58,769 bases of DNA from Chloroflexota bacterium (GTDB taxonomy: Bacteria > Chloroflexota > Anaerolineae > Promineifilales > Promineifilaceae), in assembly GCA_022616275.1 (NCBI GenBank), contig JAKEFB010000203.1, forward strand, positions 1 to 58,769. Reading direction: 5' to 3'. The notes under the pieces were generated by a model, which was given only the letters and a program-made list of their open reading frames with translations, did no database searches and was not told where the DNA came from. The translations under genes were made by a program, and so were the position numbers. This document shows positions 358 to 57,670 of the stretch, piece by piece (within the stretch, counting starts at the first letter, position 1; each line of letters opens with the position of its first letter).

Positions 358-420
358 AGTTGATAGTTCATCGTTGATGGTTGGTAGTAACTCTCCACTA
401 CCAACCATCAACGATCAACT
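358..420. repeat. Intergenic word-repeat hairpin, likely bidirectional terminator
   Basis: A perfect 17-bp inverted repeat (arms 372-388 and 397-413, 8-nt loop) is flanked by a second pair, AGTTGAT at 358-364 and ATCAACT at 414-420. The word GTTGATnGTT recurs in both arms. It lies between convergent genes, so it may terminate both transcripts. It belongs to the scattered word-repeat class seen across the window. Confidence 0.7.
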
Positions 421-533
421 TCCCCCAATGACCACTCGCTCCGCGCATTGCGTCTCGAAGTCAAGCCAAACCTCGCGCTTCGACCAGTTGGTAAAAGCGG
501 CGGTTGTGTTCAAAGTAGGCTTGCTCCGCTTCC

Positions 534-800
534 TTAATCCTCGGCCAGGTAGAATTCCTGGAAATGGCTGACCACCTCGGCCGTGCCGTCTGGCCAGATG
601 CGGTTGAGGGTGTCGTTGGTCATACGGTGGCTGGCGAAGTACTTCAGGAACTCCCGGCTCCCCTCCCGGCCGAAGCGGTAGTTGATCGTCCAGCCGGCCT
701 GCTGGATGGAGCCGTTGCGGCGGTGACGGAGGTCGTCGAGGGGCAGTTGAATTTGCCATTGCCGGAAGCGCCGGTCGAAGGTTTCTTTGATCTTTGACAT
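534..800 (-). CDS. Small hypothetical protein, probably frameshifted at its 3' end
   Basis: 88 residues, charged and aromatic, starting MSKIKETFDRRF and ending SHFQEFYLAED. No known domain recognised. It looks genuinely coding because of its balanced composition and because it is the only plausible gene between the two neighbours. Just past the stop, reading shifts by one base into a clearly protein-like stretch (IKEAEQAYFEHNRRFYQLVE, then ARGLA and a stop at 461-463). That suggests the intact protein was about 110-115 residues and that a small indel near 534-540 truncated it. Sequencing error is an alternative. Only a weak A/G-rich ribosome-binding site precedes the ATG. Confidence 0.5.
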   Translation of the reverse strand: MSKIKETFDRRFRQWQIQLPLDDLRHRRNGSIQQAGWTINYRFGREGSREFLKYFASHRMTNDTLNRIWPDGTAEVVSHFQEFYLAED

Positions 801-830
801 TTCTTTTAGGTAAAAACTGGCCGTAAGATC

Positions 831-1775
831 TTAATTGGCCTGCTTATACTTCGTCATCCAATCCTCGTACTTTGTGCCATCAGGCATGGTAGTTCCTTTA
901 AGTGTCCTTGCTGTAATCAAATTTTCAGGGTCTACAGTAGCACGCGTTAAGACAGCATTGTCCAGATTGGCGTTCTCCAGGTTGGCCCCCTCTAGATTGG
1001 CGAATTCCAGGTTAGCCCACGCCAGGTTAGCCCATGCCAGGTTAGCCTGTGCTAGGTTGGCCTCTCCTAGGTAAACCCCCGCCATGTCTGCTCCCTCGAA
1101 GTCAGCCTCTTTCAGGTTAGTTGCCTCCAGGCTAGCGTCCACCAGGCTAGCAATTGAGAAGTTAGCTTTTCTCAGGTCAGTCATTCTCAGTTCAGCTCCT
1201 TCAAGGAGAGCATCGGTCAAATCGGCACCACGCAAGTCTGCTCCAATCAGGAGAATGACGCACCCCTCTCTGTTAATCAGTCCTGCCTCACAAAGAAACT
1301 TCAGCACCTGACCTTTTCGCTCACCATCTAAGCTCCTTAACACAGCAAGCGTCCTAGCCCTAGCAATACTACGTTCCTCGGCATTCTCTTCCGTTTTTAT
1401 GCGCAAATTGTAGTCCAACAATAATTCGGTCATCTTGTCGAAATAGGCTGTCAAGATAGTTTGATTTTGCCTATCTTTGGCTATTTCTCTCTCTACTTGT
1501 CTTTCCCTTTCTGCAATTTCCAACTCGGTCTTTTTTTGTGTCATACTAAACCATAATCCACCACCAGCCAGAACAAGTGGGATTATGAGTAGCTCCAGCC
1601 AGTCCCATAGAGTTTTAGAACGATGAAATCCTCCTTCAGGATCAGTGTAGTTGCCTACTCCCGCCCAGTCCCAGTTAAACCAATAGCCCAAGAATATCAG
1701 CACACCTAACGCAACAAGCGCCAGGGTTAGAAGTAATAGCCAGTACCTTTGCACCCAGTGTAAAAGGGCTTTCAT
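831..1775 (-). CDS. Membrane-anchored pentapeptide-repeat protein
   Basis: 314 residues. Two hydrophobic segments (about residues 12-33 and 58-80) are followed by a charged, probably coiled-coil stretch (about 82-150). From about residue 175 to 275 there are successive A(D/N)Lxx units such as GADLRGADLTDALLEGA and ANLAQANLAWANLAWANL, the right-handed quadrilateral beta-helix of pentapeptide-repeat proteins. The C-terminus is a short polar tail. This matches a widespread bacterial architecture in which a cytoplasmic repeat solenoid hangs from a small membrane anchor; its function is generally unknown and probably protein-protein interaction. The coding DNA of the solenoid (about 950-1250) is itself repetitive, so slippage could change repeat number. 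No operon partner is evident. Confidence 0.85.
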   Translation of the reverse strand: MKALLHWVQRYWLLLLTLALVALGVLIFLGYWFNWDWAGVGNYTDPEGGFHRSKTLWDWLELLIIPLVLAGGGLWFSMTQKKTELEIAERERQVEREIAKDRQNQTILTAYFDKMTELLLDYNLRIKTEENAEERSIARARTLAVLRSLDGERKGQVLKFLCEAGLINREGCVILLIGADLRGADLTDALLEGAELRMTDLRKANFSIASLVDASLEATNLKEADFEGADMAGVYLGEANLAQANLAWANLAWANLEFANLEGANLENANLDNAVLTRATVDPENLITARTLKGTTMPDGTKYEDWMTKYKQAN

Positions 1776-1900
1776 TCCCCAGTACTCTCCTGCACCTTTG
1801 TTAAATTTTCACTCACTTCAGGCTACCAGCCTGTTGTACCAGCTTGGCTACCTGCTAAAGACAAAGCCTGTACGAATGACGTGCTTTCTCAGAGAGGAAC

Positions 1901-3064: not shown

Positions 3065-3272
3065 CTATTCTCTCCCTCCTGTTCCAAACGAGCTATCTTG
3101 CCGCCAAATATATTCTCCAAACAAAAACGGCCGCCAGTCCAAAACCGACGGCCGCATCCTATCCATGCCTACATCCTCCCGGCCGCGCCCTGGTCCAGCT
3201 CTGGCATCAATTTTACGCCCTTTTGCCGGGGAAATAAAGGCCGGCCGGAATTCTGTGCAATCCGTGGATTCG

Positions 3273-3959: not shown

Positions 3960-4020
3960 TTGATGATCCCTCCTGAGTAAGTAGCTGGTAGCTATAAGCT
4001 ATAAGCTTTTCTGAAAAATA

Positions 4021-8777: not shown

Positions 8778-9833
8778 ATGGATGGAACAACGACCACAGG
8801 GAAAAGGCTCCAGTTCTGGCTGGGCATTGCCATCAGCCTGGTGTGCCTGGGGGCGCTCTTTTTCTTCATCAAGCCGGCCGACATCCTGGCCGCCCTGCAA
8901 ACGACCCGTTACGACTACCTGGCCCTGGCCGGGCTGGCCTTGCTGGTCTTTATGTTGTTGCGGGCGGTGCGCTGGCGCTTCATGCTCAACAGCGGCCGGG
9001 CCGGGGGCGACGGGGTCCCTTACAGCAAGGTCTTCCACATTCAAAGTATCGGCTACCTGTTGACCAACATCCTGCCTTTCCGGGTGGGCGACGTGGCCCG
9101 GGCCGTACTGGTCGGCAACGTGCCGCCGGTGACCATTGCCCAGGGGCTGTCCACGATGGTCGTGGAGCGGGTCTTCGACTTTCTGTTCATTATCATCCTC
9201 TTTCCGTTCACACTGGTTGCCGTCAGTGACCTGCCGGCCGACACCCAGGCCGTGGTCCAAGTGGTAGGGGTGTTGACGATCGTCGCCGCCGCCGTCCTGG
9301 TGATTGCCGCCAACCAGCGGGCGCTGGCCGGCCGGATGGCCACCCGCATTTTAGACCGGGTCCCGTTCCTGGATACGGCTGCCTGGGTTAAACGGCTGGA
9401 CAATTTATTGCTGGGTCTTAACGTTCTGACCCGCTTCAAAGACGGGCTGATCTTATTAGTTCTAAGTGTCGTCGTCTGGCTACCGATTATTGCCGGCTAC
9501 TGGCTGGCCCTGCGAGCCGTCCACCTGGAGACCAGCCTGGCCGAGGCGGCTTTTGTCGTCTGCATCGCCGCCTTCAGCCTCACCGCGCCGTCGTCGCCCG
9601 GTGGGGTCGGCGTCTTTGAGGGCAGCGTTACTTTTGCCCTGGTGTCCATTCTCCACCGGCCGGAGGCCGCGTCAGCCAGTTTCGCTTTCCTCTACCACGC
9701 CCTGAATTACCTGCTGTTGGCGATTCTGGGCGTTATTGGCATCAACCGCACCAGCGCCACCTTTGGCAGCGTCCTGGCCTCGGCGCGGGCGGCCATGCCG
9801 GCGAAAAGCAAGTCGCCAGGTTATGGAGGGTAA
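8778..9833 (+). CDS. Lysylphosphatidylglycerol synthase TM-region / flippase-like membrane protein (UPF0104)
   Basis: 351 residues, almost entirely hydrophobic helices (about 8), matching the LPG_synthase_TM family (PF03706). Typical motifs are RAVRWRFML, then SIGYLLTNILPFRVGDVARA and STMVVERVFDFLFI near the first third, and SPGGVGVFEGS near the C-terminus. Members of this family sit in polysaccharide and lipid-linked glycan loci and are thought to move lipid carriers or their products across the membrane. Here it precedes a GT4 glycosyltransferase and a methyltransferase-GT39 fusion on the same strand, which supports a role in envelope glycan assembly. The start is set by the close TATAAT box. 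Confidence 0.88.
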   Translation: MDGTTTTGKRLQFWLGIAISLVCLGALFFFIKPADILAALQTTRYDYLALAGLALLVFMLLRAVRWRFMLNSGRAGGDGVPYSKVFHIQSIGYLLTNILPFRVGDVARAVLVGNVPPVTIAQGLSTMVVERVFDFLFIIILFPFTLVAVSDLPADTQAVVQVVGVLTIVAAAVLVIAANQRALAGRMATRILDRVPFLDTAAWVKRLDNLLLGLNVLTRFKDGLILLVLSVVVWLPIIAGYWLALRAVHLETSLAEAAFVVCIAAFSLTAPSSPGGVGVFEGSVTFALVSILHRPEAASASFAFLYHALNYLLLAILGVIGINRTSATFGSVLASARAAMPAKSKSPGYGG

Positions 9834-9835
9834 GG

Positions 9836-9900
9836 GAGATTGGAGATTAGAGATTGGAGATTGGTAATCTCTAATCTCCAATCTCTCATCCCTCATCTCT
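9836..9900. repeat. Word-repeat cassette with 20-bp perfect hairpin
   Basis: Words GGAGATT and AGAGATT run in direct order and are then inverted. Arms 9836-9855 and 9866-9885 are perfectly complementary over 20 bp with a 10-nt loop, followed by a further CATCCCTCATCTC run. It lies between the flippase-like gene and the GT4 gene, so it may attenuate readthrough or stabilise the upstream mRNA. Confidence 0.75.
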
Positions 9901-14067: not shown

Positions 14068-14170
14068 GAGTATGCGAGTGGGCGAGTAGTAGGTGGCAAG
14101 TGGCAGGTGGCAGGTAGCAGGTGGGTATGCTCACTCATTGCTCATCGCTCATTGCTGATTGCTCATCACT
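14068..14170. repeat. Word-repeat tract upstream of the protease gene
   Basis: A run of GCGAGT(G/A)G units, then AGGTGGCAAGTGGCAGGTGG-type units (14090-14122), then CTCATTGCTCATCGCTCATT-type units (14131-14167). Three word types are concatenated. The second type matches, in reverse complement, the tract at 8661-8720. Confidence 0.65.
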
Positions 14171-15611: not shown

Positions 15612-16316
15612 ATGCATCGCCTGTCGCGCCTCACGCTTCTGTTTGCCGTGCTCTTTGCCGTCTTCATCATTCTGCCCGGCCTCCTCAGCCAGCAACTGGG
15701 CCTGTTCCCGCTGATAAAGGTCGGCGACGTTCTTGACGTATTCACACCTCTGGTCCTGATACCCATTTACTGGCTGCTTTACTGGGGCAGCCGGGAGGCG
15801 GCGCCTGGCTCCCGGGCCACACTGCTCTTCCTGGTGCTCATCGCCATGTGGGCGGAAGGGCAGGGCATGCACCTGTCGGCCAACTCCATTGGCCACCTGC
15901 TCCAGGAAACGCGGCCTAACGACCCCTACGAGCTGACCCACTTTTACGACGAGGTGCTGAGCCATTACCTGTGGCACACGGCCGTGATTGGCCTGTCCGT
16001 TCTGATCGCCGGGCGGCACTGGCGGCAGCCGGTTCCCGGCGAGCAACGGGACGGACGGCTGGAAATTCCGGCGGCGGTCATTTACGGCCTGACCTACTTC
16101 ATCGTCGTCATCGAGGGCGGCACCGCGCCGTTGGGTGTGCCTTTCGCCGTCCTGGCGGCCGTGGTTGGCCTGGTCTGGGGCCGGAGGGCAATCAAGGAGC
16201 GGCCGGTGCTGCTCTTCTTCCTGGTCGCCTACGTGCTGGCTACTGTGGTATTTGCTGGTTGGGCTCTTTACTGGGGCGGCCTGCCGCAATTTAGCGAAGT
16301 CGGGATTATCGAGTAA
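15612..16316 (+). CDS. Multi-pass membrane protein of unknown function
   Basis: 234 residues with about six hydrophobic helices. The start at ATG 15612 is fixed by AGGAGG at 15600-15605, 6 nt upstream; the longer in-frame start at 15564 would begin inside a hairpin. The loop between helices 2 and 3 has a His-bearing motif GQGMHLSANSIGH and then THFYDEVLSHYLWH, suggesting conserved polar residues in or near the membrane. No family was recognised with confidence. It sits between the protease and the acylase on the same strand, and its TAA stop is inside the next repeat cassette. Confidence 0.75.
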   Translation: MHRLSRLTLLFAVLFAVFIILPGLLSQQLGLFPLIKVGDVLDVFTPLVLIPIYWLLYWGSREAAPGSRATLLFLVLIAMWAEGQGMHLSANSIGHLLQETRPNDPYELTHFYDEVLSHYLWHTAVIGLSVLIAGRHWRQPVPGEQRDGRLEIPAAVIYGLTYFIVVIEGGTAPLGVPFAVLAAVVGLVWGRRAIKERPVLLFFLVAYVLATVVFAGWALYWGGLPQFSEVGIIE

Positions 16317-16346
16317 TTGAGTAATTACTGAATTACTCAATTACTC
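16311..16346. repeat. Word-repeat hairpin containing the upstream stop codon
   Basis: GAGTAATTGAGTAATT (16311-16326) and its exact complement (16331-16346) form a 16-bp stem with a 4-nt loop. The TAA stop of the membrane protein (16314-16316) is part of the left arm. The same AATTACTCAATTACT word family recurs at 33971-34020 and 36791-36861. Confidence 0.75.
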
Positions 16347-16360
16347 AATTACTTCAGCCT

Positions 16361-26736: not shown

Positions 26737-26914
26737 CGACAGGGCGCGAGAAAGCCGCTAAAGCGGTTACTACGAACCTATTACGACCGGTACATCCCCA
26801 CTTAATCGTGGAGATAGGTCCATTCATATACCAACTCGCCAGTAGATGACTTCATAAGCCATATCATAACGGGTGGCCGACTTCCAAAGAACTCTTTATC
26901 GTGCTCTTCAAAGC

Positions 26915-26949
26915 AAAACCCCGCAGCTCTTGGAGATCTGCGGGGTTTT
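26915..26949 (-). terminator. Hairpin terminator after the secreted-protein genes
   Basis: AAAACCCCGCAG (26915-26926) and CTGCGGGGTTTT (26938-26949) form a perfect 12-bp stem with an 11-nt loop, with the T-run on the minus-strand 3' side. It lies 33 bp after the stop of the small secreted protein. The same AACCCCGCAG word builds the hairpin at 47833-47882. Confidence 0.75.
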
Positions 26950-26981
26950 CCCTGAGGCGTAGCGTTTCCGACCAATGCCCT

Positions 26982-28646: not shown

Positions 28647-28729
28647 GCCGTAAAGGGGCGCCGGCCGCAGCTTAGGAAAATTTAAGTTTTAGACTACGCA
28701 TTCGTAAGAATTGGCGTGTATAAAGGGAA

Positions 28730-28809
28730 GTTAGAGTTTGGAGTCAGGTTTTGGCAAAGCCAAAACTCGGTTAGAGTACCAGACTCTAACGCTAACTCAA
28801 GACTCTAAC
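28730..28809. repeat. Word-repeat cassette immediately upstream of the DUF2298 gene
   Basis: GTTAGAGT occurs at 28730 and 28770 and inverted as ACTCTAAC at 28783 and 28802; between them GTTTTGGC-AAA-GCCAAAAC (28748-28766) forms an 8-bp hairpin. The cassette ends one base before ATG 28811, leaving no room for an ordinary ribosome-binding site. A sister copy with the same order of words is at 57590-57670. Confidence 0.75.
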
Positions 28810-33970: not shown

Positions 33971-34020
33971 GGTAATTGAGTAATTGAGTAATTACCAAAT
34001 TACTTAATTACCTGATTACC
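33971..34020. repeat. Word-repeat hairpin between the DUF2298 genes
   Basis: GGTAATTGAGTAATT (33971-33985) faces AATTACTTAATTACC with one mismatch. It belongs to the same AATTACTCAATTACT family as 16311-16346 and 36791-36861 and begins 3 bases after the upstream stop. Confidence 0.7.
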
Positions 34021-34048: not shown

Positions 34049-36793
34049 ATGCCACTCACCGACATTTTCGCTGCCATCCGCTGGTGGATTGTTTTGATGG
34101 TCCTGGGGGCGGCGGCCATGCCGCTAAGCTTCCGGTTGTTCGGCCGCCTGCCGGACCGGGGCTACGCCTTTAGCAAGATGCTTGGCCTGCTGGTCACCAG
34201 CTACCTGTTCTGGCTGCTGGGCAGCCTGGGCTTCCTGGGCAACAACCTGGGGGGTATCCTCTTTGCCCTGGCCGGCCTGGTTGTTCTCTCCGTCTGGGTA
34301 GCCCGGCGTAGCGCGGCCGAAGGCAGCCGGGACAACGCGCCGGTCAATGCACTGGAAAGCGCGCCAGGAAGTGTGCCGGAAAGCAGGGAAGCAGACGCAG
34401 ACCAGCGGACGCGCCAGGACAATAGCCAGCACGAAAGTCTCAGTCAATGGCTACGCGAACAATGGCGGTACGTGCTGGCGGCCGAACTTGTCTTTGCCGC
34501 CGTCTTCGTTTTATGGGTCTGGGTCCGGGCGCAAAATCCGGCGGTCATTAACACCGAAAAGCCGATGGAGTTTGCCTTTTTAAACGCCGTCGGCCGCAGT
34601 CCCTCCTTCCCACCCCTGGACCCCTGGCTATCCGGCTACGCCATCAGCTACTATTACTTCGGCTACATCATGACCTCGGTCATGGCCCGGCTGGCGGCCG
34701 TGCCGGAGCCGCTGGCCTTTAACCTGGGCATTGCCTGGCTGACGGCCGGCACGGCACTGGGCGCGTTCGGGCTGGTCTATAACCTGGTGGCCTACGGCGA
34801 TACGGTACGCTCCTCAGTGAACCGGTGGGCGCTTACGTTTGGTTTGGTGGCGGCGGTGGCCCTGCCGCTGGCCGGCAACCTGGAAATTGTGCTGGAAGTG
34901 CTGCACGCCAACGGGCTTGGCTCAGATGGTTTCTGGGCCTGGCTGGACGTGCGCGACCTGAGCGGGCCGGCCCAGGACGTGGCCGCTCCTCGTTACACGA
35001 CGAGTGAGTGGTGGTGGTGGCGCTCCTCGCGAGTCATTCACGAATACCACCTGTCCGGCCGGAGTGAAGAGGGGCTAGAGCCTATCGCCGAGTTCCCGGC
35101 CTTCAGCTTCGCCCTGGGCGACATGCACCCCCACGTGCTGGCCCTGCCGTTTGCCTTTCTCAGCCTGGCGATAGCTTTTCAATTTTGGATTTTAGATTTT
35201 GGATTTTGGATTGGAGATAGTAATCTAAAATCCAAAATCCAAAATCTAAAATGGGACCATTGGTTGTTGTGGGGGGTAGCGGCGCTCGTTCTGGGCGGGT
35301 TGTCATTTCTGAATACCTGGGACGTGCTTATTCACCTGTTTATTGTCGTCGGGGCTTTTGCCCTGGCCTGGCGGCGGCAGATCGGCCGGTGGGAACGGCC
35401 GATTTTCGGCCAGGCGCTCCTGCTGGCGGCGGCTCTGGCCATCCCGGCCATTTTGTTGTACCTGCCGTTTTACCTGGGCTTCCGCACGCAGGCCGGGCCA
35501 CCGTTTTTGTTGCCCATGACGATGCAGCCGACGCGCCTGACCCATTTCGTGATTATTTTTGGCATGCCGCTGCTGGGCATTCTTTTCCTGGTGGTGACGC
35601 TGGTGATCCACCGGCTTCGCCAGCCGGCCAGGGAAGAAGAACAACCGGCCGTGGCCTGGCAAACCGGGCTGCTGGCGGCCGGTGGCCTGGTGATCATCCT
35701 TTTCCTGCTTATGCTGCTACTGGGCTGGATCATCACGGCCAACCCGGAAGGGGCCGGGCGCATGGCCGGCCTGGCCAACGAACTGGCTATGACGCTGCCA
35801 GCCCAGCCGGCGGCCGACGCGCCGCCCCTGGCCCGGCTGGGCTGGGGCGCGTCGGCCGTGGTCGCCTTGCTGCCGGCCTTCCTGCGGGCCAGGCTGGCCA
35901 CCCCGGCCCTGACCCTTTTCCTGACCGGCCTCCTGGCCCTGGTGGTGGCTCTGCTAACCGGCGGCTGGTCCGCACGCCGGCCGGAGGAAGTGGATATAGA
36001 AGCGGAAACGGCCCCGGCGGACGGCGCAGTCCAGGACGCCCCCGGGGCAATGCCTTTTGTTCTACTGCTAATTCTGACCGGCGTGCTGTTGACGTTGGGG
36101 CCGGAGTTCGTGTACATCAAGGACGTTTTCAGCCAGCGACTCAACACGATCTTCAAATTCTATTACCAGGCCTGGGTCTTGTTTGGCGTGGCTGCCCTCT
36201 TTGGCCTGGCCTATTTAATGCGCCATTTCCACCGGAGCGGCCTATTGGCCACGGCCGGCTATGGGTTGGCCCTGGCCGCGGCTTTGCTTTTCCCCGTTTA
36301 CGCCGTAAACTCGCGGGCTATTGAGTACCGTGGCCCGGCGACGGCCGAAGAACGGCGGCCGGCTACGCTCAATGGCCTGACCTACCTCAGCCCCGACGAA
36401 TACGAGGCGATTATGTGGCTGCGGCAAAACGTTGGCGACGCACCGGTTATCGTCGAAGCCGTCGGCGGGGCGTACACCGGCTACGCCCGCGTCTCGGCCA
36501 GCACCGGCCTGCCGACCGTGTTGGGCTGGCCCGGCCACGAATACCAGTGGCGGGGTAGCACGCCGGAGCCAGCGGCGCGCGAGCCGGCGGTGCAGACCAT
36601 TTACAGCCTGGCTGGTTGGCAGCAGACGGCCGAGCTGCTTAACCGCTACCAAGTAGCCTACGTTTACTTTGGCCCTCTAGAACAGACCACCTACGATCCC
36701 CAGGCGGCTCAAAAGTTCGAGGAGAACCTGGAGGTGGCTTACCGGAACGGCAGCGTGACGATTTATCGCTGGCAGCCACAAGAGGAGGGGTAA
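34049..36793 (+). CDS. DUF2298 (Chlor_Arch_YYY) membrane protein
   Basis: 914 residues, about 15 helices. It aligns block by block with the second half of the preceding protein: LPDRGYAFSKMLGLLVTSYL, NTEKPMEFAFLNAVGRSPSF, YYYFGYIMTSVMARLAAVPE, PAFSFALGDMHPHVLALPF, NTWDVLIHLF and RLNTIFKFYYQAWVLFG. It lacks the N-terminal GT39-like half. A hydrophilic acidic linker (about 90-135) is followed by a repeat-encoded loop (about 379-402) at the position equivalent to the inserted loop in its paralogue. The pair probably act in the same envelope glycan pathway. The TAA stop lies in the next repeat cassette. Confidence 0.9.
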   Translation: MPLTDIFAAIRWWIVLMVLGAAAMPLSFRLFGRLPDRGYAFSKMLGLLVTSYLFWLLGSLGFLGNNLGGILFALAGLVVLSVWVARRSAAEGSRDNAPVNALESAPGSVPESREADADQRTRQDNSQHESLSQWLREQWRYVLAAELVFAAVFVLWVWVRAQNPAVINTEKPMEFAFLNAVGRSPSFPPLDPWLSGYAISYYYFGYIMTSVMARLAAVPEPLAFNLGIAWLTAGTALGAFGLVYNLVAYGDTVRSSVNRWALTFGLVAAVALPLAGNLEIVLEVLHANGLGSDGFWAWLDVRDLSGPAQDVAAPRYTTSEWWWWRSSRVIHEYHLSGRSEEGLEPIAEFPAFSFALGDMHPHVLALPFAFLSLAIAFQFWILDFGFWIGDSNLKSKIQNLKWDHWLLWGVAALVLGGLSFLNTWDVLIHLFIVVGAFALAWRRQIGRWERPIFGQALLLAAALAIPAILLYLPFYLGFRTQAGPPFLLPMTMQPTRLTHFVIIFGMPLLGILFLVVTLVIHRLRQPAREEEQPAVAWQTGLLAAGGLVIILFLLMLLLGWIITANPEGAGRMAGLANELAMTLPAQPAADAPPLARLGWGASAVVALLPAFLRARLATPALTLFLTGLLALVVALLTGGWSARRPEEVDIEAETAPADGAVQDAPGAMPFVLLLILTGVLLTLGPEFVYIKDVFSQRLNTIFKFYYQAWVLFGVAALFGLAYLMRHFHRSGLLATAGYGLALAAALLFPVYAVNSRAIEYRGPATAEERRPATLNGLTYLSPDEYEAIMWLRQNVGDAPVIVEAVGGAYTGYARVSASTGLPTVLGWPGHEYQWRGSTPEPAAREPAVQTIYSLAGWQQTAELLNRYQVAYVYFGPLEQTTYDPQAAQKFEENLEVAYRNGSVTIYRWQPQEEG
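35182..35252. repeat. In-frame word-repeat cassette with 23-bp perfect hairpin
   Basis: Words GATTTTGGATTTTAGATTTT repeat in direct order and then inverted. Arms 35190-35212 and 35229-35251 are perfectly complementary over 23 bp inside an open coding frame, encoding FWILDFGFWIGDSNLKSKIQ and a few more residues. The AT-rich composition contrasts sharply with the GC-rich host gene. Confidence 0.85.
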
Positions 36794-36861
36794 TTGGATA
36801 ATTAGGTAATTGGGTAATTAAGTAATTCAATTACCCAATGACTCTAATTACTTAATTACTC
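36791..36861. repeat. Word-repeat cassette containing the DUF2298 stop codon
   Basis: TAATTGG/TAATTAGG units followed by inverted AATTACCC and AATTACTTAATTACTC units; ATTGGGTAATT (36809-36819) pairs exactly with AATTACCCAAT (36829-36839). The upstream stop TAA (36791-36793) is its first word. Confidence 0.7.
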
Positions 36862-36871
36862 TTGTTATGGA

Positions 36872-47749: not shown

Positions 47750-47832
47750 AAAGCATCTACCCCTCCAGGTTAGCTATCCCAAAGCTAGAGGTAATGTTAC
47801 CCTATTTAGGCCGCGTTTCAATGGCAATTCCA

Positions 47833-47882
47833 AACCCCGCAGGTCGGGCACGAACTATCGTACCTGCAAGACCTGCGGGGTT
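47833..47882 (-). terminator. Hairpin terminator after the receiver-kinase gene
   Basis: AACCCCGCAGGTC (47833-47845) and GACCTGCGGGGTT (47870-47882) form a 13-bp perfect stem that directly follows the stop of the minus-strand gene at 47883. There is no strong T-run. It shares the AACCCCGCAG word with 26915-26949. Confidence 0.65.
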
Positions 47883-49538
47883 CTATTTTAACAAGGGCAG
47901 GGTAAAGTGAAAGGCGCTGCCCCCACTGGCGACCGGTTCAACCCAAATGCTGCCGCCGTGCGCTTCCACTGCCAGCCGACAAAAAGCCAGCCCCAGCCCG
48001 CTGCCACGGCCTGGCTGCCGGCCGGTGACGAACTTCTGAAACAGGCGGTCCTGCAAATCGGCCGGGATGCCTGGTCCGGTATCGCTAACGGTGACGCGGA
48101 CCATTGGCAGACGGCCGGGCGACGGGTCCAGCCCGGCCGCCACCCGGATAGTCCCGCCGCTAGGGGTGAACTTAACGGCGTTGCCGATCAGGTTTTGCAG
48201 CACACGGCCCAGCAACGCCGGATCAACCCAGAGCAGTGGTAAAGTCGGGTCTAACTCCTGCCTCAGCAAAAGAGCCTTCTCTTCAGTCTGGGCCATTTGT
48301 AAATGGAAAGCCTCGCCAACCAGGTCAGCCAGGATAGTCTCCTGGCGTTCCAGGGGCATGTGCCCGCTTTCCAGGCGGCTCACGTCCAGGATGGTGTTGA
48401 CCAGGATCAGCATTCGCTGGCTATTTCGGTAACACACGGCGAGAAATTTGTGGGCTACACTGTGTGCTTCTTCAGGAAAATGCAATTGTAGCATATCCAG
48501 CGCCCCGATGATGTTGTCAAGCGGATTGCGCAAATCGTGGACCATCGTCCGGGTCACATCTTCGCGCAATCGTTCTACTTGCTTGCGCTGGGTAATGTCT
48601 TCCGAAATACCGGCAATCCGGTAGACCACACCATGCTCGTTGCGGATTGGAAAGGCCCGCGACCAGATCCAGCGGATAGAACCATCGGGCCGGATAAGGC
48701 GATACTCAACGTCATACTGGCCGCTGGCTTTCTCCGCCTGGGCCAGGCGCACTCGCTCCTGATCCTCTGGGTGGACGGCGTCCAGGAAGGAGAGCGGCCG
48801 CTCGTACAAACTCTGGCAAGTAACTCCCCACACCTCCTCGTAAGCCGGGCTGACATACAGCATTCGGGTCTGTTCGGCGTCGGTCATCCAGAAGACCTGG
48901 TGGATGTTTTCGGCCAACTGGCGCAATCGTTGTTCGCTTTCGCGCAGAGCTTCATAGGTCGCGCCGATGAGCTGGCGCCCGGCGGCCGAGACATCCTCAA
49001 GCAATGGCTCCAGATCGTGTTCAGGAGCCAACGGCCGGCTCAGTTTAGCCGGCGCCAGGCGCAGCCTTATCGCTTCCAGCTCGGCCACTTTTTGAGATAG
49101 CTTGTCGGTCAGCAGGCGCAGGTGTTCCCGATCAAATTCTGCTCCCGTCGAGGGCGCAACCGGCGGCCGGCTAAGGCCAAGGACTCGACTCACTGTATGG
49201 AGAACATCCTCCGGCTCGGCCGGCTTGGTCAGGATCTCAGTTACGCCACACTTCCTGGCCAGGTTGCGGGCCTCGTGCTCCTGATAAGCGGCCGTACAAA
49301 AAATAACCTGGCTCTGGGCAATGGCCGGATCGGCCCGCACTTGGCGGACAAACTCGAAGCCGTCCATCGTCGGCATGAGAATGTCGGCAATGATCAGGTC
49401 CGGCCGCCCGGCTCGCGCGGTTGCCAACCCTTCGGCACCATCGGCCGCCTCCAGCAAGCGATGGCCGGCGTACTGCAATAGAGTGACCAGGAACTCTCGA
49501 TTAGTCGGGCTATCGTCTACAACTAATATCGTCGCCAT
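47883..49538 (-). CDS. Receiver-PAS-histidine kinase hybrid
   Basis: 551 residues from the internal ATG at 49538; a TTG-initiated extension of seven residues is less likely. Receiver domain 1-125 with acidic residues VVDDSPTN, phosphoacceptor D52 in LIIADILMPTMDG and K of ILTKP. A coiled coil follows (about 145-215), a PAS domain (about 215-325, YVSPAYEEVWGV) and HisKA with H334 in MVHDLRNPLDNII, then HATPase (QNLIGNAVKF, VSDTGPGIP, GSGLGLAFC). A receiver at the N-terminus implies phosphorelay input from another kinase, perhaps the neighbour at 43673-47749. A 343-bp repeat-bearing leader lies upstream. Confidence 0.93.
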   Translation of the reverse strand: MATILVVDDSPTNREFLVTLLQYAGHRLLEAADGAEGLATARAGRPDLIIADILMPTMDGFEFVRQVRADPAIAQSQVIFCTAAYQEHEARNLARKCGVTEILTKPAEPEDVLHTVSRVLGLSRPPVAPSTGAEFDREHLRLLTDKLSQKVAELEAIRLRLAPAKLSRPLAPEHDLEPLLEDVSAAGRQLIGATYEALRESEQRLRQLAENIHQVFWMTDAEQTRMLYVSPAYEEVWGVTCQSLYERPLSFLDAVHPEDQERVRLAQAEKASGQYDVEYRLIRPDGSIRWIWSRAFPIRNEHGVVYRIAGISEDITQRKQVERLREDVTRTMVHDLRNPLDNIIGALDMLQLHFPEEAHSVAHKFLAVCYRNSQRMLILVNTILDVSRLESGHMPLERQETILADLVGEAFHLQMAQTEEKALLLRQELDPTLPLLWVDPALLGRVLQNLIGNAVKFTPSGGTIRVAAGLDPSPGRLPMVRVTVSDTGPGIPADLQDRLFQKFVTGRQPGRGSGLGLAFCRLAVEAHGGSIWVEPVASGGSAFHFTLPLLK

Positions 49539-50920: not shown

Positions 50921-51976
50921 ATGAACGACGCCCCACCCCCCTTCATCGCCGGCCCGCCCATCCTCCACCCCGGCCGCTTCTTCGGCCGGCAGCGGGAGGT
51001 GCGGCGCATCTTCAGCCTGCTCCGGCACGCGCCGCTGCAAAACGCGGCCATCATCGGCCCCCGGCGTTCCGGCAAAACGTCACTGCTGCACACGCTGAGA
51101 AGGCTGCCCACAGCGGCCGCCGACGAGTTGCGGCCGGAGCAGCGCCAGGAGTGGCTGCCCCAAGCGGAGCGCTACCACTGGATCTTTGTGGACTTCCAGG
51201 ACGCCCGGCTGGGCCGGCCGGAAACGCTGCTGCGCCACCTGCTGGACGGGCTGGGGCTGCCGGCCCCAGAGCCGTGCGACCTGGACCATTTTTTGAACGC
51301 CGCCAGCGGCCGGGTGAAGGCGCCCACGGTGGTGCTGCTGGACGAAATCGGGGTGGCCCTGGCGCGTTATCCGGCGCTGGACGACGCCTTCTGGGAGAGC
51401 CTGCGCTCGCTGGCCACCAACCAGGCCGGCGGCCGGCTGGCCTTTATCCTGGCCACCCACGAGCCGCCCCACGAGCTGGCCCGGCGGGGCGGCCTGGGCT
51501 CGCCGTTCTTCAATATTTTCGGTTATACAACCACTCTGGGGCCGCTGGCCGAGGAGGACGCTCGCCACCTGTTGGCCAGCTCGCCCATTCCCTTCGCTCC
51601 GGCCGACGTGGCCTGGATGCTGGAGCAAAGCGGCCGGTGGCCCTACCCGCTGCAAATCCTGGCCCGCGAGCGTCTCTTTGCCCTGGAAGAGGGTGAAAGC
51701 GGGGATGGCTGGCGCCCGGCTGCGCTACGCCAGTTAGCCGCCATTGCCGTAGAGGAACCGGCCGGCCGCCCGGTCGCCTTGCCGGAGCCGCTCAGCGAGC
51801 GGGAATTAGAAGTGCTGGGCCTCATCGCCGCCGGGCTGTCCAACCAGGAAATTGCCGGCCGGCTGGTCGTCGCCGTCAGCACGATCAAGACGCACGTCAA
51901 CAACATCTACGGTAAGCTCAACGTCCGCAACCGGACTGAGGCGGTGGCCCGGGCCAGGGAGTTGAAGCTCTTGTAG
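50921..51976 (+). CDS. P-loop AAA ATPase with C-terminal LuxR helix-turn-helix
   Basis: 351 residues. N-terminal FFGRQREVRRIFSLL, then Walker A IIGPRRSGKTSLL (K52, T53) and Walker B TVVLLDEIGVAL (about 133-145), in the AAA_14/ORC-like clade that recognises protein partners. A helical region follows, and residues about 285-351 are a LuxR-type helix-turn-helix (LSERELEVLGLIAAGLSNQE, then STIKTHVNNIYGKLNVRNRT). A signal-driven ATPase would switch the DNA-binding tail, as in small MalT/STAND-like activators. It has its own TATAAT box and diverges from the ROK gene. The TAG stop is inside the next word-repeat tract. Confidence 0.88.
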   Translation: MNDAPPPFIAGPPILHPGRFFGRQREVRRIFSLLRHAPLQNAAIIGPRRSGKTSLLHTLRRLPTAAADELRPEQRQEWLPQAERYHWIFVDFQDARLGRPETLLRHLLDGLGLPAPEPCDLDHFLNAASGRVKAPTVVLLDEIGVALARYPALDDAFWESLRSLATNQAGGRLAFILATHEPPHELARRGGLGSPFFNIFGYTTTLGPLAEEDARHLLASSPIPFAPADVAWMLEQSGRWPYPLQILARERLFALEEGESGDGWRPAALRQLAAIAVEEPAGRPVALPEPLSERELEVLGLIAAGLSNQEIAGRLVVAVSTIKTHVNNIYGKLNVRNRTEAVARARELKLL

Positions 51977-52010
51977 TTGTCTAGTCGTGTAGTTATGTGG
52001 TTATGTGGTT
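51971..52010. repeat. Word-repeat tract containing a stop codon
   Basis: TTGTAGTTGTCTAGTCGTGT and AGTTATGTGGTTATGTGGTT units. The TAG stop (51974-51976) of the AAA-LuxR gene belongs to it. It is the reverse complement of the second word type in the acylase cassette (16958-16993). Confidence 0.65.
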
Positions 52011-52014
52011 CGGT

Positions 52015-52902
52015 TTACCTCTGAGTTAATCGAACCCGTTCCCGTACTTGATCGTAGCCATCTTTGCGCCCCGGTTCAGGGGCGGCCGGCAATAGTTTTA
52101 CCTGGATCTGGCCGTTGGCTACGGCTACTTCAAAGGTCTTGAGGTCTGTTTTGGCCGGCCCCTGGGTCACCTGGCCGGTGCGCACGTCGAAGCAAGAACG
52201 GTGCCAGGGGCACATGATTTCGTGGTCGCGCAGGCTGCCTTCCGATAAGGGACCAAAGCGGTGGGTACAAAATTCCTGGAAGGCATAGAATCGGCCGTCT
52301 ACCTTGACGATGGTCATGACCGTGCCATCTACTTCGGCGCGCAGCGTTTCTCCCTCGCCAAGCTGGTCAGCCCTGGCAACTGGGACGAACCGGCCGGCTC
52401 GTTGCTCCGCAGACAGATGGACGGTCTGGCGGGGCGTGGCGGTGTGGCGGCGGTGGCGGCCGACGGCGATGCCGTCGGTGTAAACCAGCGTGCCGCCCAG
52501 GTAACCAGAGTAGGACAGGATAACGACGGCCAACAACGACAAAGCGAGAGGAGCGGCCGGGGTCGCGCCGGCGTCGAGCGACCCGTAGCGGAGAATGAGG
52601 CTCACCCCATTCAGACCGACGACCGTCAGGTTCAAGGCCAGGTGAAGGGTGGCCGTCTTTTTGGCCGGATGGTCCTGGCGAATATCCGACCAGTCCACCA
52701 GGCCGGGAATAGCCGCCAGTAAAGCGGTAGCCACGCCGCCAATCAGGGTATAGAAAGCGCCGCGCACCAGGCCATTGCCGGGCTGCGCCAGGCTGCCCAG
52801 GTCGAGCAGCAGCGTGAGAATGAACAGGCCAATCGGCAGGTGAACGAGTGCCGGATGAAGGGGATGGCCAAAAGGTTTACCTTGTAACAGCTCTTTGAAC
52901 AT
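52015..52902 (-). CDS. DUF2231 membrane domain fused to a Rieske [2Fe-2S] domain
   Basis: 295 residues. The N-terminal DUF2231 part (about 1-150) has HPLHPALVHLPIGLFILTLL and four helices. Residues about 165-275 form a Rieske domain with C212-x-H214 in FCTHRFGPLSEG and C231-x2-H234 in CPWHRSCFDV, all four cluster ligands present. A soluble ferredoxin-type Rieske tethered to a DUF2231 membrane domain suggests an electron carrier or haem/cofactor-associated redox partner at the membrane. Its start lies 12 bp after the stop of the preceding DUF2231 gene, so the two form an operon. Confidence 0.9.
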   Translation of the reverse strand: MFKELLQGKPFGHPLHPALVHLPIGLFILTLLLDLGSLAQPGNGLVRGAFYTLIGGVATALLAAIPGLVDWSDIRQDHPAKKTATLHLALNLTVVGLNGVSLILRYGSLDAGATPAAPLALSLLAVVILSYSGYLGGTLVYTDGIAVGRHRRHTATPRQTVHLSAEQRAGRFVPVARADQLGEGETLRAEVDGTVMTIVKVDGRFYAFQEFCTHRFGPLSEGSLRDHEIMCPWHRSCFDVRTGQVTQGPAKTDLKTFEVAVANGQIQVKLLPAAPEPGRKDGYDQVRERVRLTQR

Positions 52903-52914
52903 AACCTCGACTCC

Positions 52915-53793: not shown

Positions 53794-53821
53794 TGGGGGT
53801 ACAGGGGGGAGTCCCGGCATC

Positions 53822-53847
53822 CATTCGTGCAATTCGTGTCGAAATTT
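53822..53847. repeat. ATTCGTG word repeat
   Basis: ATTCGTGCAATTCGTGTCG repeats the ATTCGTG word found at 4021-4074. It ends just before the AGGAG ribosome-binding site of the pilin-like gene. Confidence 0.4.
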
Positions 53848-53859
53848 AGGAGATGAAAC

Positions 53860-54093: not shown

Positions 54094-54198
54094 ACCGGGT
54101 CGCCGCCTATTGGCCGGACGATGAAGTTGTGCAAGAATTCAAGATGCTGGTAGCCGTCGCGGCCGGCCTGGAACAATAGCACGCCTGGCATCGCCAAA

Positions 54199-54843: not shown

Positions 54844-54859
54844 CTTTACTATTAACCTT

Positions 54860-57589
54860 GTGAAACCTCCTTCTCAAAACTCCACCCCCCAAAGCGCCTA
54901 CACCAACGCGCCGTTGTTGCATCCCGGTCTACTGGTGGGCAGCCTGCAACTGCTGTTCTGGCTGGTTTTCCACCCGCCGGCCTGGCACAACCACCTCGGC
55001 CGGCTGGACACCACCCTACCCCTCGACTTTTGCTTGGCCGGGCTTGGCCGGGCGCAGTGGAGCAATGCCGGCCTGCGCCGGCTGCTGGTCATGACTCATC
55101 TGGTCTGGCCGTTCCTGGCCACGGCCGTGGCCGCCGGCCTGTGGTGGGCGGCCGGCCGGCCGGCGGCGCAGATCCTGTTGTTGATGGTCGGCGGCCTGGC
55201 GGCGGCCGTGGCCAGCAGCCTGATTATCAGCTTCTTTGTCAACCTGCCCTTTGGCGTGGTCGCCGGCCCGGCCATTATCCTGGGCCAGGCCGGGCTGCCG
55301 CTCGTCTTGCTGCTTAGCCTGGCCGCCAGCCTGGGGGCGACGCTGACCATCTACCCGGCGACGCACCAGGCCGAACGGCCGCCCACGTACTCGCTGGCCC
55401 GGCGGGCCGGCGGCGTGGTCGTCGGGGTGTTGACCAGCGGCCTGGTCTACGTGTTGGCCATCTGGACGGCCAATATTGCCCTGCAAGGGGTGGTCCGGGC
55501 TGAGCTGGCCCTGGCCGCCTTTTACGGCCTGGTCAGCACGGTGGTCTTTGGCTGGCGCACCGGCCATTGGGGGCGCGGGCTGGCCTTTGCCGCCGTGACT
55601 ACGCCACTCCTGGCGCTGGCCTTAATGGTTCTTCAGGCGCCATCGCCCCTGGCCGAAAATGGAGCTATCTTTGCCCTGGCCGAGGTCCCGTCTAACGCCG
55701 TGCAACTTTTTCTACGGGCCGGCAACACCGTCGCCCTGGCCGGCACCTTGCTGGGCCTCAGTTACCTGCTGGCCCGGTGGGTGGGCGGCCGGGAGGCCGG
55801 GGCGGTGGCTGTGGCCGGCATGACCGGCGGCGTTGGCGTCTTCGCCTCCGGCCTGATTGCCCCCTTCTGGCCAACGCTGCTGATGGGGCTGCTGGTCATT
55901 TTGCTGGGGCTGACGTTGCCCTGGTGGCGGCCGGTCGTCTCCTATCCCTTCCAGGTGCTGTGGAACTTCCTGTTACTGCGCGGCGACGAACAGGGGTTGG
56001 GCAAGAAGCGCCGGCCGCCCCGCCTGCGCCAGCACGCCGCTTTCTGGGACAGCGAGCAGCCGCTGCGCTTCCTGGGTCTCCACGAGCACCTGGTCCTGGT
56101 CATGGAGCACGACCCGGCCGAAGCCCGGGCGGCGCTGGAGTTCCTGGCCCGCAGCCGGCAGCGCTGGGCCGCCCGCGAAGCCCAAATCGAGCTGGACGCC
56201 CGCCAATTGGCCGGCTGCCAGCACGTAGCCGCCATTGGCCAGGCCCACCAGGCCCTGGCGGCCGGCGAGCTGGCCGGGCCGGGCAGCGCCCTGCTGCGTA
56301 GCTTCAGCCGGGCCAGCCGGGACGTGGCCGCCGGCCTGCAGCAGGAAAGTCCCTATAACCAGCGGCTGGCCCTCAGCGCCGTAGAAGAGCGGCTGGACGG
56401 CCTGGTCCGGGAATTGACGCGCAGCAGCGAGCCGTACGCCGCCCGCTTCCGGCCGGTAGCCGGCCAGTGGCGGGAAGTGGTGGCCGGCCACGTCCACCAG
56501 TTGGCGGCCGAGGCCGACGCCCGCCAGGAAATTGACAACCCTTACATTATCGGCGTGCCCCTCAGCGAGCAGCAAGCGCTGTTCGTCGGCCGGACGGACA
56601 TCAGCGGCCGGATTGAGCAACTGCTGCTGGACCGCCGCCGGCCGCCCATCCTGCTCTACGGCCAGCGGCGGATGGGTAAGACGTCGCTGCTGAACAACCT
56701 GGGCCGGCTGCTGCCCAGCACCATCGTGCCTCTTTTTGTAGACTTGCAAGGGCCGGCGTCGCGGGCGGCCGGCCACGCCGGCTTTCTCTACAACCTGGCT
56801 CGCGGCCTGGCGAACGCCGGCCGGCAGCACGGACTGGTCCTGCCGCCGCTTAGCCGCGAGGCGCTGGCTTCCGACCCTTTTACAATCTTTGACGAGTGGC
56901 TGGACAGCGTTGAAGCAGCGCTGGGCGCCCGCCTGGCCCTGCTGGCCCTGGACGAGTTGGAAGCGCTGGAAGAGGCCCTGGGCACCGGCCGCTTCGAGGA
57001 AGGCCCGGTCCTGGGCATGCTGCGCCACCTCATCCAGCACCGGCCGAAATTTAAAGTGCTGCTCTCGGCCTCGCACACGCTGGAAGAGCTACAACGCTGG
57101 TCCAGTTACCTGATTAACGTCCAGGTGGTCCAGGTGGGGTATTTGCAAGAAAACGAGGCCCGCCAGCTTATCGAGCGGCCGGTCCAGGGCTTTGCCCTGC
57201 GTTACCAACCGGAAGCGGTGGCGCGCGTCCTGGCCCTGACCCGGTGCCACCCTTTCCTGGTCCAATTGCTGTGCGCCGAGATTGTGGCCCTGAAAAACGA
57301 GCAGGCCCCGGCCGTTCGTCGCCTGGCGACGGTGGCCGACGTGGAAGCGGCCGTGCCCGAAGCACTGGGCCACGGCAGCTTCTTTTTTGCCGACATCGAG
57401 CGCAACCAGGTGGACGCGGCCGGGGCGGCGTTCCTGCGCTCGCTGGCCGGCAAGGCAGCGGACCAGCAGCAAGCAGCGCCGCCCGAACTGCGACCCACGC
57501 TGGAGCGGCTAGTCCAACGAGAGTTGATCGAGCCAACCGGAAACGGCTACCGCTTCCAGGTTGAGCTTATCGGCCGGTGGTTCAGGTAA
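54860..57589 (+). CDS. Membrane-bound P-loop ATPase
   Basis: 909 residues from GTG 54860; an upstream ATG at 54683 would overlap the preceding gene out of frame and is rejected. About eight hydrophobic helices (about 20-350) form the membrane part. A helical cytoplasmic linker (about 370-560) leads to FVGRTDISGRIEQLLLDRRR and Walker A LLYGQRRMGKTSLLNNL (K607), with Walker B LALLALDELEALEE about 95 residues later. A winged-helix-like tail follows. The ATPase is the same AAA_14/ORC-like type as the AAA-LuxR protein. This suggests a membrane-tethered switch responding to an envelope or membrane cue. The stop is followed at once by a word-repeat cassette. Confidence 0.85.
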   Translation: MKPPSQNSTPQSAYTNAPLLHPGLLVGSLQLLFWLVFHPPAWHNHLGRLDTTLPLDFCLAGLGRAQWSNAGLRRLLVMTHLVWPFLATAVAAGLWWAAGRPAAQILLLMVGGLAAAVASSLIISFFVNLPFGVVAGPAIILGQAGLPLVLLLSLAASLGATLTIYPATHQAERPPTYSLARRAGGVVVGVLTSGLVYVLAIWTANIALQGVVRAELALAAFYGLVSTVVFGWRTGHWGRGLAFAAVTTPLLALALMVLQAPSPLAENGAIFALAEVPSNAVQLFLRAGNTVALAGTLLGLSYLLARWVGGREAGAVAVAGMTGGVGVFASGLIAPFWPTLLMGLLVILLGLTLPWWRPVVSYPFQVLWNFLLLRGDEQGLGKKRRPPRLRQHAAFWDSEQPLRFLGLHEHLVLVMEHDPAEARAALEFLARSRQRWAAREAQIELDARQLAGCQHVAAIGQAHQALAAGELAGPGSALLRSFSRASRDVAAGLQQESPYNQRLALSAVEERLDGLVRELTRSSEPYAARFRPVAGQWREVVAGHVHQLAAEADARQEIDNPYIIGVPLSEQQALFVGRTDISGRIEQLLLDRRRPPILLYGQRRMGKTSLLNNLGRLLPSTIVPLFVDLQGPASRAAGHAGFLYNLARGLANAGRQHGLVLPPLSREALASDPFTIFDEWLDSVEAALGARLALLALDELEALEEALGTGRFEEGPVLGMLRHLIQHRPKFKVLLSASHTLEELQRWSSYLINVQVVQVGYLQENEARQLIERPVQGFALRYQPEAVARVLALTRCHPFLVQLLCAEIVALKNEQAPAVRRLATVADVEAAVPEALGHGSFFFADIERNQVDAAGAAFLRSLAGKAADQQQAAPPELRPTLERLVQRELIEPTGNGYRFQVELIGRWFR

Positions 57590-57670
57590 GTTAGAGTCAG
57601 GTTTTGGCCTTGCCAAAACCCGGTTAGAGTTAGAGTGAAAAACACTCTAACTCTAACTTTTCACTCTAAC
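57590..57670. repeat. Word-repeat cassette with terminator-like hairpin
   Basis: GTTAGAGTTAGAGTG (57623-57637) and its exact complement (57643-57657) form a 15-bp stem with a 5-nt A loop, followed by TTTTC. GTTTTGGCC-TT-GCCAAAAC nearby and the order of words copy the cassette at 28730-28809. Confidence 0.8.

Follow-up and report, generated by a model that had tools for sequence, protein, structure and literature searches.

Word hairpins along the window

The window, which is the whole stretch of 58,769 nucleotides analysed here, carries the word hairpins and word tracts collected in Table 1. In the hairpin at 9829..9899 the stem (9836-9885) lies 2 nt past the stop of gene 8778-9833 and 20 nt ahead of the next start. 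The tract at 36789..36862 includes a perfect stem (36814-36859) 20 nt beyond the DUF2298 stop. The composite at 28728..28809 is similar to that at 57588-57670, which also holds an inner palindrome, GGTTTTGGC..GCCAAAACC.

Table 1 Word hairpins and word tracts in the window.
Feature	Position	Strand	Remark
Word hairpin, degenerate heptamers (GTTGATG-type)	341..421	.	Perfect stem 370-415
Word hairpin GGAGATT/AGAGATT	9829..9899	.	Stem 9836-9885
Mosaic tract: G-rich words AGGTGGC, then C-rich words of another family, CTCATTG	14084..14170	.	Read directly
Octamer word hairpin GAGTAATT	16308..16353	.	Stem 16311-16346, overlapping stop of gene 15612-16316
GTTAGAG words with inner palindrome GGTTTTGGC..GCCAAAAC	28728..28809	.	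Read directly
Word tract GTAATTGA / TAATTAC...	33971..34020	.	Imperfect hairpin between two DUF2298 genes
Word hairpin GATTTTGG/GATTTTAG	35182..35252	+	In frame inside DUF2298 gene 34049-36793
Word tract GGTAATTGG/GTAATTAA	36789..36862	.	At and past DUF2298 gene stop
Direct-only word tract, TATGTGGT-type	51976..52020	.	Read directly
GTTAGAG word hairpin	57588..57670	.	Stem 57623-57657, between convergent gene ends

Word hairpins are a real feature, far above chance: The window contains 18 perfect inverted repeats with arms of at least 10 and loops of at most 30, compared with a mean of 2.6 and a maximum of 6 in 40 block-wise dinucleotide shuffles. Seven perfect hairpins have arms of at least 14 (shuffles: mean 0.025, maximum 1), and seven hairpins have word-like arms of at least 12 (shuffle mean 0). 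A genome sample of 459 kb gave 39 perfect hairpins with arms of at least 14 against a mean of 0 in 3 shuffles.

A first-pass annotation of this DNA had counted about 25 such tracts. The enrichment is borne out, but the count itself is reachable only by adding direct-only tracts and ordinary palindromes. All five of the examples it named fold as hairpins: the stems at 372-413, 9836-9885, 16311-16346 and 57623-57657 are perfect, and 35190-35251 belongs to a perfect stem of 24 bp (35189-35252), which a small internal loop follows deeper in. As read in the window, the cassettes are indeed unlike CRISPR or insertion sequences. Recurrence of each word family at two or more distant loci was found for AATTACTCAATT (tracts at 16315-16350 and 33974-33993, and a relative at 36789-36862) and GTTAGAGT (28730-28809 and 57590-57670), but not for GGAGATT, GATTTTGG or AGGTGGCAAGTGG. 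GGAGATT and GATTTTGG form one repeated tract each in the window, their remaining matches being single words, and hairpins of both were found again elsewhere in the genome; AGGTGGCAAGTGG occurs once in the window. ATTCGTG has 10 scattered matches in the window, of which only those at 53823 and 53832 are adjacent. AACCCCGCAGG had also been listed as a word family; its GC-rich stem at 47833/47872, and a relative at 26915 that terminates in TTTT, look like intrinsic terminators instead. As for cassettes entering genes, the window offers one clear case, that at 35182-35252 in a DUF2298 membrane protein. This site is a length-variable protein loop, and other word-like tracts were seen there by eye in 6 of 18 other genomes.

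Plan and placement of the cassettes

The cassettes follow a common plan of a G-rich 5' arm, a loop and the complement of the arm, with units that are degenerate 6-8-mers. Word periods of 7 and 8 dominate and 6 is also present, which places degenerate tandem heptamers among the units. Many loci draw on one vocabulary, which extends to several genera and to Acidobacteriota, and word lengths are likewise common to several genera. What is shared is confined to the words: among 26 hairpins from sampled parts of the genome, a set that includes two GC-rich ones probably passing the word filter by chance, the loops differ in all 26, and the longest common run, 21 nt, consists of words only.

The arms show a strong polarity. 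The 5' arm is the G-rich one in 60 of 64 word hairpins, and counts of the G-first pattern were 324, against 0 for the opposite, in genomes G000, G010 and G022 together. Other, non-word hairpins are G-first more weakly, in 74 of the 105 decided (27 vs 13 in G000, 47 vs 18 in G022). An opposite-polarity pattern, AATTAC..GTAATT, was absent from 40 of 41 genomes and had 14 matches per strand in G004, where G-first matches were left uncounted. Stop codons within the words were considered as a cause of the polarity. Stops in the 5' and 3' arms numbered 71 vs 11 in G022 and 38 vs 23 in G000 (p = 0.11); since this bias is weak in G000 and the G-over-C polarity is strong in both genomes, stop codons are probably not the main cause.

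Genes were taken from a simple codon-usage caller. Because a small number of very long gaps, probably representing missed genes, governed the null expectation based on gap length, we used distance to the stop codon rather than gap length. In co-directional gaps of <250 bp, 98 of 112 word hairpins lie at most 20 nt from a stop, with a median of 3.5 nt; these 112 come from 122 co-directional hairpins, 10 having been excluded for larger gaps. Sixty-six loci in the sets used here, for U-tracts and for stem mismatches were retrieved by an octamer pattern, which biases their polarity and the perfection of their stems. In G000 and G022, 35 of 38 word hairpins fall within the same 20 nt, compared with 33 of 51 other hairpins. 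Proximity to stops and a G-first tendency are thus found in non-word hairpins as well, which counts against treating word hairpins as special.

Turnover at orthologous sites

The evidence on turnover comes from species pairs, compared pairwise, in which no template switch was itself observed. For two species we aligned 23 orthologous word sites, chosen by eye as word-like in at least one of them, leaving aside a weak site, L082:15268, and all non-word hairpins. The flanks are 92.3% identical and the sites themselves 66.8%. Classified by eye, 5 sites are conserved, 11 keep their word family but are rewritten, 5 have a different family in the same place and 2 have a tract in one species only, a mixed outcome for the mobility suggested in the first-pass annotation, against which every cassette at every orthologous site would have spoken. 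At L072:17311 a 7-mer has switched to an 8-mer with both arms re-made (self 20 and 24, cross 13 and 14), and at L071:13490 a base pair is altered on both arms together with a word-sized indel, between flanks that are 99% and 94% identical. At L069:14716, L072:9727 and L082:6426 both species have a hairpin, with unrelated words. Another genus gave one clear family exchange among 6 gaps compared. Positions thus often persist between related species while their words are rewritten or exchanged.

The two arms may change in concert, for which support is modest. With splits fitted to a species' own hairpin, self pairing exceeded cross pairing at 9 of 13 sites, equalled it at 4 and fell below it at none (p = 0.004); when cross pairing was also optimised, 8 of the 13 sites were better, 4 equal and 1 worse (p = 0.027). 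Setting aside the three sites of family exchange reduced the counts to 5, 4 and 1, which is not significant (p = 0.22). The outcome varies with the design of the test, and the fairer version, with cross pairing optimised, is the weaker.

Known parallels and possible origin

The closest known system is the degenerate tandem heptamers of Xanthomonas and Nostoc (GGGAATC and GGGGA(C/T)T), which are intergenic and near or overlapping stop codons (PMC4692102). Convergent inverted pairs among them number 70 in Xcc and 75 in Xac, and 83% are found again, at differing length, in the corresponding gene context of a sister species (PMC4692102). The Chloroflexota cassettes resemble them in their degenerate tandem words, stop-codon proximity, G-rich strand first and convergent pairs. 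In print, these heptamers are a better parallel than the small dispersed repeats of cyanobacteria first proposed. The cassettes differ in using several, mostly A+T-rich 6-8-nt words, where one G-quadruplex-type word per genome studied is described for Xanthomonas and Nostoc (PMC4692102), and in their perfect or near-perfect hairpins and same-site family exchange. Nor are the arms in G000 and G022 quadruplex-capable: counted within the arms, GGG is present in 2 of 26 for the former genome and 12 of 38 for the latter, and none of these arms has four G-tracts of at least 3.

Other parallels are partial. The TAACTGA direct repeats of Beggiatoaceae and Cyanobacteria are likewise dispersed, mostly intergenic heptamers, patchy over distant phyla, and close strains differ by indels in 7-nt steps; they differ in being a single word, mostly direct and near start codons in the BOGUAY genome, and the available text reports no co-varying arms (PMC4679880). 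Fungal mitochondrial genomes contain palindromic microsatellites and, as cited in the same source, the double-hairpin elements of Allomyces; their simple-repeat palindromic arms, some in one sister species only, recall the cassettes, but the arms are mononucleotide and the genomes organellar (PMC7218506). REPINs are also short inverted pairs, mostly extragenic and forming ssDNA hairpins, but their REP sequence is conserved and they are associated with a RAYT (PMC3116915), whereas the cassettes have no fixed sequence. In quasipalindrome correction by template switching, one event can make or repair a perfect hairpin and alter both arms (PMC8794818, PMC7202029, PMC8604942). It is described as a local type of mutation (PMC8794818), and the Chloroflexota cassettes occupy many loci per genome with a common vocabulary. 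A search of the open-licence literature, mostly titles and abstract openings, returned no prior description of multi-word gene-end hairpins in Chloroflexota.

The cassettes could act at the 3' ends of mRNAs as functional RNA hairpins, be it in termination, stabilisation or processing, and be maintained by selection and compensatory mutation. Their location at gene stops and between convergent genes, the persistence of sites between species and some co-variation of the arms agree with this, as does the description of Xanthomonas transcripts starting or stopping more often at quadruplex-forming than at control repeats (PMC4692102). We consider it unlikely, however. Stem mismatches on the transcribed strand comprised 29 G.T and 32 A.C of 89 in 129 cassettes (p = 0.80), and with no G.U preference selection on RNA is not evident. 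A U-tract after the stem, as in intrinsic terminators, is no commoner (12/112) than in a mirror control (17/112), one gene pair followed across 18 genomes is separated in 5 of them by at most 21 bp, where no hairpin is present, and one cassette sits within a coding frame. A discrete element moved in trans by a transposase (a REPIN, MITE or similar) is very doubtful, and the very small mobile element of the first-pass annotation is not upheld: the 26 hairpins share words without a common loop, fixed sequence or fixed ends, with neither a conserved REP-like sequence in all copies nor MITE-type fixed terminal inverted repeats and near-identical copies found among them, and positions in sister species mostly persist with their content rewritten. 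By contrast, dozens of matches at 78-98% identity were obtained for a repeat of fixed sequence in G035. A discrete mobile element would fit the fact that the cassettes are dispersed, patchy across genera and at 2 of 23 sites present in one species only, and the genome has 6 matches to Y1 transposase domains. Matches to Y1_Tnp, scored as presence in a genome, occur in 31 of 37 genomes and do not visibly follow hairpin richness.

The same holds for RVT_1, with matches in 24 of 37 genomes; both driver comparisons are weak, as richness was taken from 22 genomes, most of them represented by 4-43 kb, with several stretches from contigs named by earlier searches. RVT_1 bears on the idea of a dedicated writer, telomerase-like or a short-template reverse transcriptase, that would extend a 3' end by G-rich words, with fold-back copying producing the second arm. 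This is improbable in view of the RVT_1 distribution, itself a weak point since the RVT_1-free G018 is otherwise hairpin-poor yet has a word-like tract in its DUF2298 loop, and of the opposite-polarity hairpins in G004, although the strong G-rich-first polarity and the word lengths and vocabulary common to several genera argue for it. Simple-repeat slippage combined with chance palindromes, and no special process, seems quite improbable. The units are degenerate tandem repeats and some tracts are direct-only, but long perfect hairpins are missing or nearly so from the shuffles, the inverted arms show one polarity, one family can replace another at the same site, and a second process would be needed for the inverted arms.

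We tentatively favour, at somewhat less than even confidence, a reading in which these are gene-end hairpins, built of 6-8-nt words, whose content is rewritten in situ at the DNA level, most likely by template switching. During replication or repair, a growing strand would stall at the hairpin and fold back or jump across, copying the opposite arm; this would restore a perfect stem, gain or lose whole words and convert 7-mers to 8-mers. Occasionally, words of another family would be picked up from a cassette elsewhere in the genome via word-sized homology. Tracts would survive only where they do little harm and are nearly neutral to the host: in the gap between a stop and the next RBS, where two genes converge, or as an in-frame part of a free protein loop. 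Template switching had been raised in the first-pass annotation; it fits the whole-hairpin replacements and the missing RNA-type wobble bias, with modest backing from the formal arm-concert test. Its local version does not alone explain why many loci, several genera and also Acidobacteriota have one vocabulary in common, and its generic form does not predict the G-rich-first polarity, which is weaker in other hairpins.

It is possible, if somewhat unlikely, that the spreading heritable unit is the 7-8-nt word and not an element, the vocabulary being common to phyla (Chloroflexota, Acidobacteriota). If so, fixed gene-end hairpins would be docks, overwritten from other hairpins by word-length homology, and the genome-wide vocabulary would propagate and change like a population of ultra-short replicators.

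Persistent positions with rewritten or exchanged words suggest DNA copying that remakes hairpins in place, and not ordinary jumping elements. Position is here separated from content: the repeat population is mostly static yet rewritten or exchanged, and it lacks the wobble bias that would mark selection on RNA, which cautions that paired arms alone are not proof of a functional RNA. The cassettes thus offer a natural, testable system for the origin and persistence of perfect DNA hairpins, and are a source of novel C-termini and protein loops.

Hairpins built from a shared vocabulary

The window is one entire contig (58,769 bp, 62% GC) of an 8.53 Mb genome that comprises 309 contigs and is 98% complete. 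The five hairpins that the first-pass annotation had cited as examples of word-repeat cassettes are all real in the sequence. The window contains 7 perfect inverted repeats with arms ≥14 nt, where shuffled sequence averages 0.025, and 7 word-like perfect inverted repeats against 0 in shuffles (40 shuffles in each case). Across 459 kb (the window and 20 further stretches) perfect hairpins with arms ≥14 nt number 39, and 3 shuffles give 0.0. Roughly half of the 39 are word-like and the remainder are GC-rich or other palindromes. Each cassette consists of words, then a loop, then the complementary words opposite. The words are degenerate and include heptamers (GGAGATT, GATTTTG, GTTGATG and GTTATTG), an octamer type (GTAATTGA) and a hexamer type (GTTAGA). 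A search of the window's genome with one octamer pattern, TAATTN3TAATTN3TAATT, gives 146 matches, and the reversed control gives none. Octamer words also lie within about 125 bp of the ends of three contigs of this genome (C158, C270 and C284), and some cassettes may break the assembly.

Among 26 unique word hairpins from sampled parts of this genome, a set which includes two GC-rich members that are probably chance, no two have a loop in common, and the longest exact run they share, 21 nt, consists solely of words. The word hairpins are a vocabulary without a consensus, not copies of one element. The contrast is with fixed sequences such as the ~94-bp AGACCTGACAGGTTT... repeat, for which G035, the sister species of G022, gives dozens of matches (78-98% identity) spread over many contigs. 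A separate ~63-bp palindromic repeat (AGTGCCTGGCAC...), with similar sequence in G022, G035 and the window's genome (G000), looks MITE-like. Recurring GC-rich stems of AACCCCGCAG type, at least one of which terminates in TTTT, are probably intrinsic terminators and not word cassettes.

Hairpins, repeats and compared sites (unprefixed coordinates, window; L, further stretches, L082 being in G022)
Feature	Location	Remark
GTTAGAG words flanking the GGTTTTGGC..GCCAAAAC palindrome	28728-28809; 57588-57670	Two distant composites
Two word families joined	14084-14170	Single tract
DUF2298 gene	34049-36793	
AACCCCGCAG-type stems	26913-26951; 47831-47884; L060:19397; L062:4886	
~94-bp AGACCTGACAGGTTT... 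repeat	L082:16903-16996	Orthologous G035 site without it
~63-bp AGTGCCTGGCAC... repeat	L051:2377-2439; L065:253-316; L066:6301-6363; L080:1847-1909; G035 C565:1979-2041	C565 copy missing at orthologous G022 site
~200-bp GCAGTGA-type heptamer array	L072:18457-18690	Partial matches across many G035 contigs
Conserved, 5/23	L069:7944; L071:1873; L072:19412; L082:2315; L082:5278	By eye
Different word family, 5/23	L069:19382; L069:14716; L072:9727; L072:1658; L082:6426	By eye
One species only, 2/23	L069:11584; L071:1025	By eye

Polarity, gene context and distribution

G outnumbers C in the 5' arm of 25 of the 26 word hairpins in G000 and 35 of the 38 in G022, and hairpins without word-like arms show the same tendency (27 to 13 and 47 to 18, respectively). 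When the set is widened to 106 decided word hairpins of non-TAATT type, 90 are G-first, G022 being weakest (21 to 10). The G-first octamer pattern has 76, 4 and 244 matches in G000, G010 and G022, which overlap and are not independent loci, and the C-first pattern has 0 in each. Of 41 genomes, only G004 has opposite-polarity AATTAC..GTAATT hairpins, with 14 C-first matches per strand. Because the arm order of an inverted repeat is the same on both strands, this polarity belongs to the hairpin and not to gene direction.

With genes placed by a simple gene caller, 177 word hairpins were pooled from four sets: 122 lie in co-directional, 20 in convergent and 12 in divergent gaps, 11 are inside genes and 12 are at the ends of stretches. 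In co-directional gaps <250 bp, 98 of 112 lie ≤20 nt from the upstream stop (median 3.5 nt; stop overlapped in 39%), and only 3.6% have the next start within 8 nt. Stop proximity is weaker for other hairpins (33/51, versus 35/38 word hairpins, in G000 and G022). One word hairpin is inside the window's gene for a DUF2298 membrane protein, in frame. The DNA for the inter-helix loop concerned was read in 19 genomes: by eye, seven (G000, G001, G003, G004, G012, G015 and G018) carry word-like tracts there, with differing words, whereas other genomes have a short loop. The gap preceding the gene, read in 18 genomes, holds a GTAATTGA tract in G000, a hairpin of AGTTTTC words in G015 and, in G045 from another family, a GCGTGGT hairpin; in G012, G014, G017, G019 and G021 it measures -4 to 21 bp and is hairpin-free.

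Of 60 genomes searched, 12 carry TAATT words; the window's genome is one of them, and all 12 belong to the 36 genomes of its family. The reversed control gives 10 matches over all 60. Two genomes of one genus, G010 and G029, have 7 and 282 matches. The class was searched for the full octamer hairpin across 298 genomes; 5 have it, every one from the window's family and its own genome included. In a genome-contig collection, 80 of 115 stretches with this hairpin comprise at least 66 Chloroflexota, at least 13 Acidobacteriota and at least 1 Xenorhabdus loci; most named contigs among the matches listed are MAGs labelled Chloroflexota, Anaerolineae or Ardenticatenaceae. Of the 14 non-Chloroflexota loci among the matches listed, those that have word-like hairpins mostly show the G-rich arm first, an order imposed by the search pattern itself, and several are close to gene ends. 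In a 22-genome survey, word hairpins number 9.5 per 100 kb in G022 and 5.7 in G000, and G015, sampled over only 30 kb, has 10; five genomes give 2.3-5.0, each from one or two hairpins, and 14, many with little sequence sampled, give zero.

Rewriting at orthologous sites

Across four 20-kb regions compared between G022 and G035, which belong to one genus, 23 word sites are 66.8% identical and their flanks 92.3%. Sorted by eye, 11 of the 23 are rewritten, each within its word family, the others being conserved, exchanged or confined to one species (Table). At L072:15471 and L072:17311, G022 heptamers stand opposite G035 octamers on both arms. At L071:13490, where the flanks are 99% and 94% identical, both arms differ at a base pair and there is an additional stretch the size of a word. 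At L069:14716 the two species share the edge GGAGATTGAGA, beyond which G022 has another word family, as if the tract had been partly overwritten, in either direction. In another genus, one of six gaps compared has a GTGATGC hairpin in G015 and a GGCAGGT/TGGCAAG tract in G030 (flanks 87% and 91% identical).

Joint replacement of both arms is plain at family exchanges and also at L072:17311 and L071:13490. At 13 two-species hairpin sites, arms pair better with their own partner than across species in 9, equally in 4 and worse in 0 (Wilcoxon p=0.004, with the split fitted to each own hairpin). When cross pairing is optimised too, this becomes 8, 4 and 1 (p=0.027), and 5, 4 and 1 without three family exchanges (p=0.22). 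Together these tests do not establish joint replacement as a general rule within word families. Selection on an RNA would also be expected to keep arms paired, but among 129 co-directional cassettes the 89 stem mismatches on the transcribed strand include 29 G.T and 32 A.C (p=0.80), and a U-tract follows the stem in 12/112 versus 17/112 in the mirror control, no excess. Stems are perfect in 66 of the 129. Their mismatches average 0.69 per 19 pairs (about 1.8% per base), which is less than the flank divergence of roughly 8%. As detection is biased towards perfect stems, the difference no more than hints that the stems arose after the species split.

Known relatives and a proposed mechanism

The closest relative is the heptamer system of Xanthomonas and Nostoc, whose repeats likewise lie near stop codons, form convergent pairs and persist at their sites from one species to another (PMC4692102). 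That system centres on one quadruplex-type word (PMC4692102), whereas here GGG occurs in 2/26 arms in G000 and 12/38 in G022. TAACTGA repeats (PMC4679880), REPINs (PMC3116915), template-switch hairpins (PMC8794818) and mitochondrial palindromes (PMC7218506; PMC6649704) offer further parallels. An inverted-repeat survey of 118,019 genomes describes a bacterial peak 50-80 bp past stop codons, ascribed to terminators (PMC13155455); the hairpins here are closer to the stop and lack a U-tract.

The conclusion we favour is that the tracts are rewritten in place by a DNA-level process, most likely template switching at the hairpin, and that cassettes are visible at the places where they are tolerated. 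Because families are exchanged and the vocabulary is shared, we infer that words are imported from other loci.
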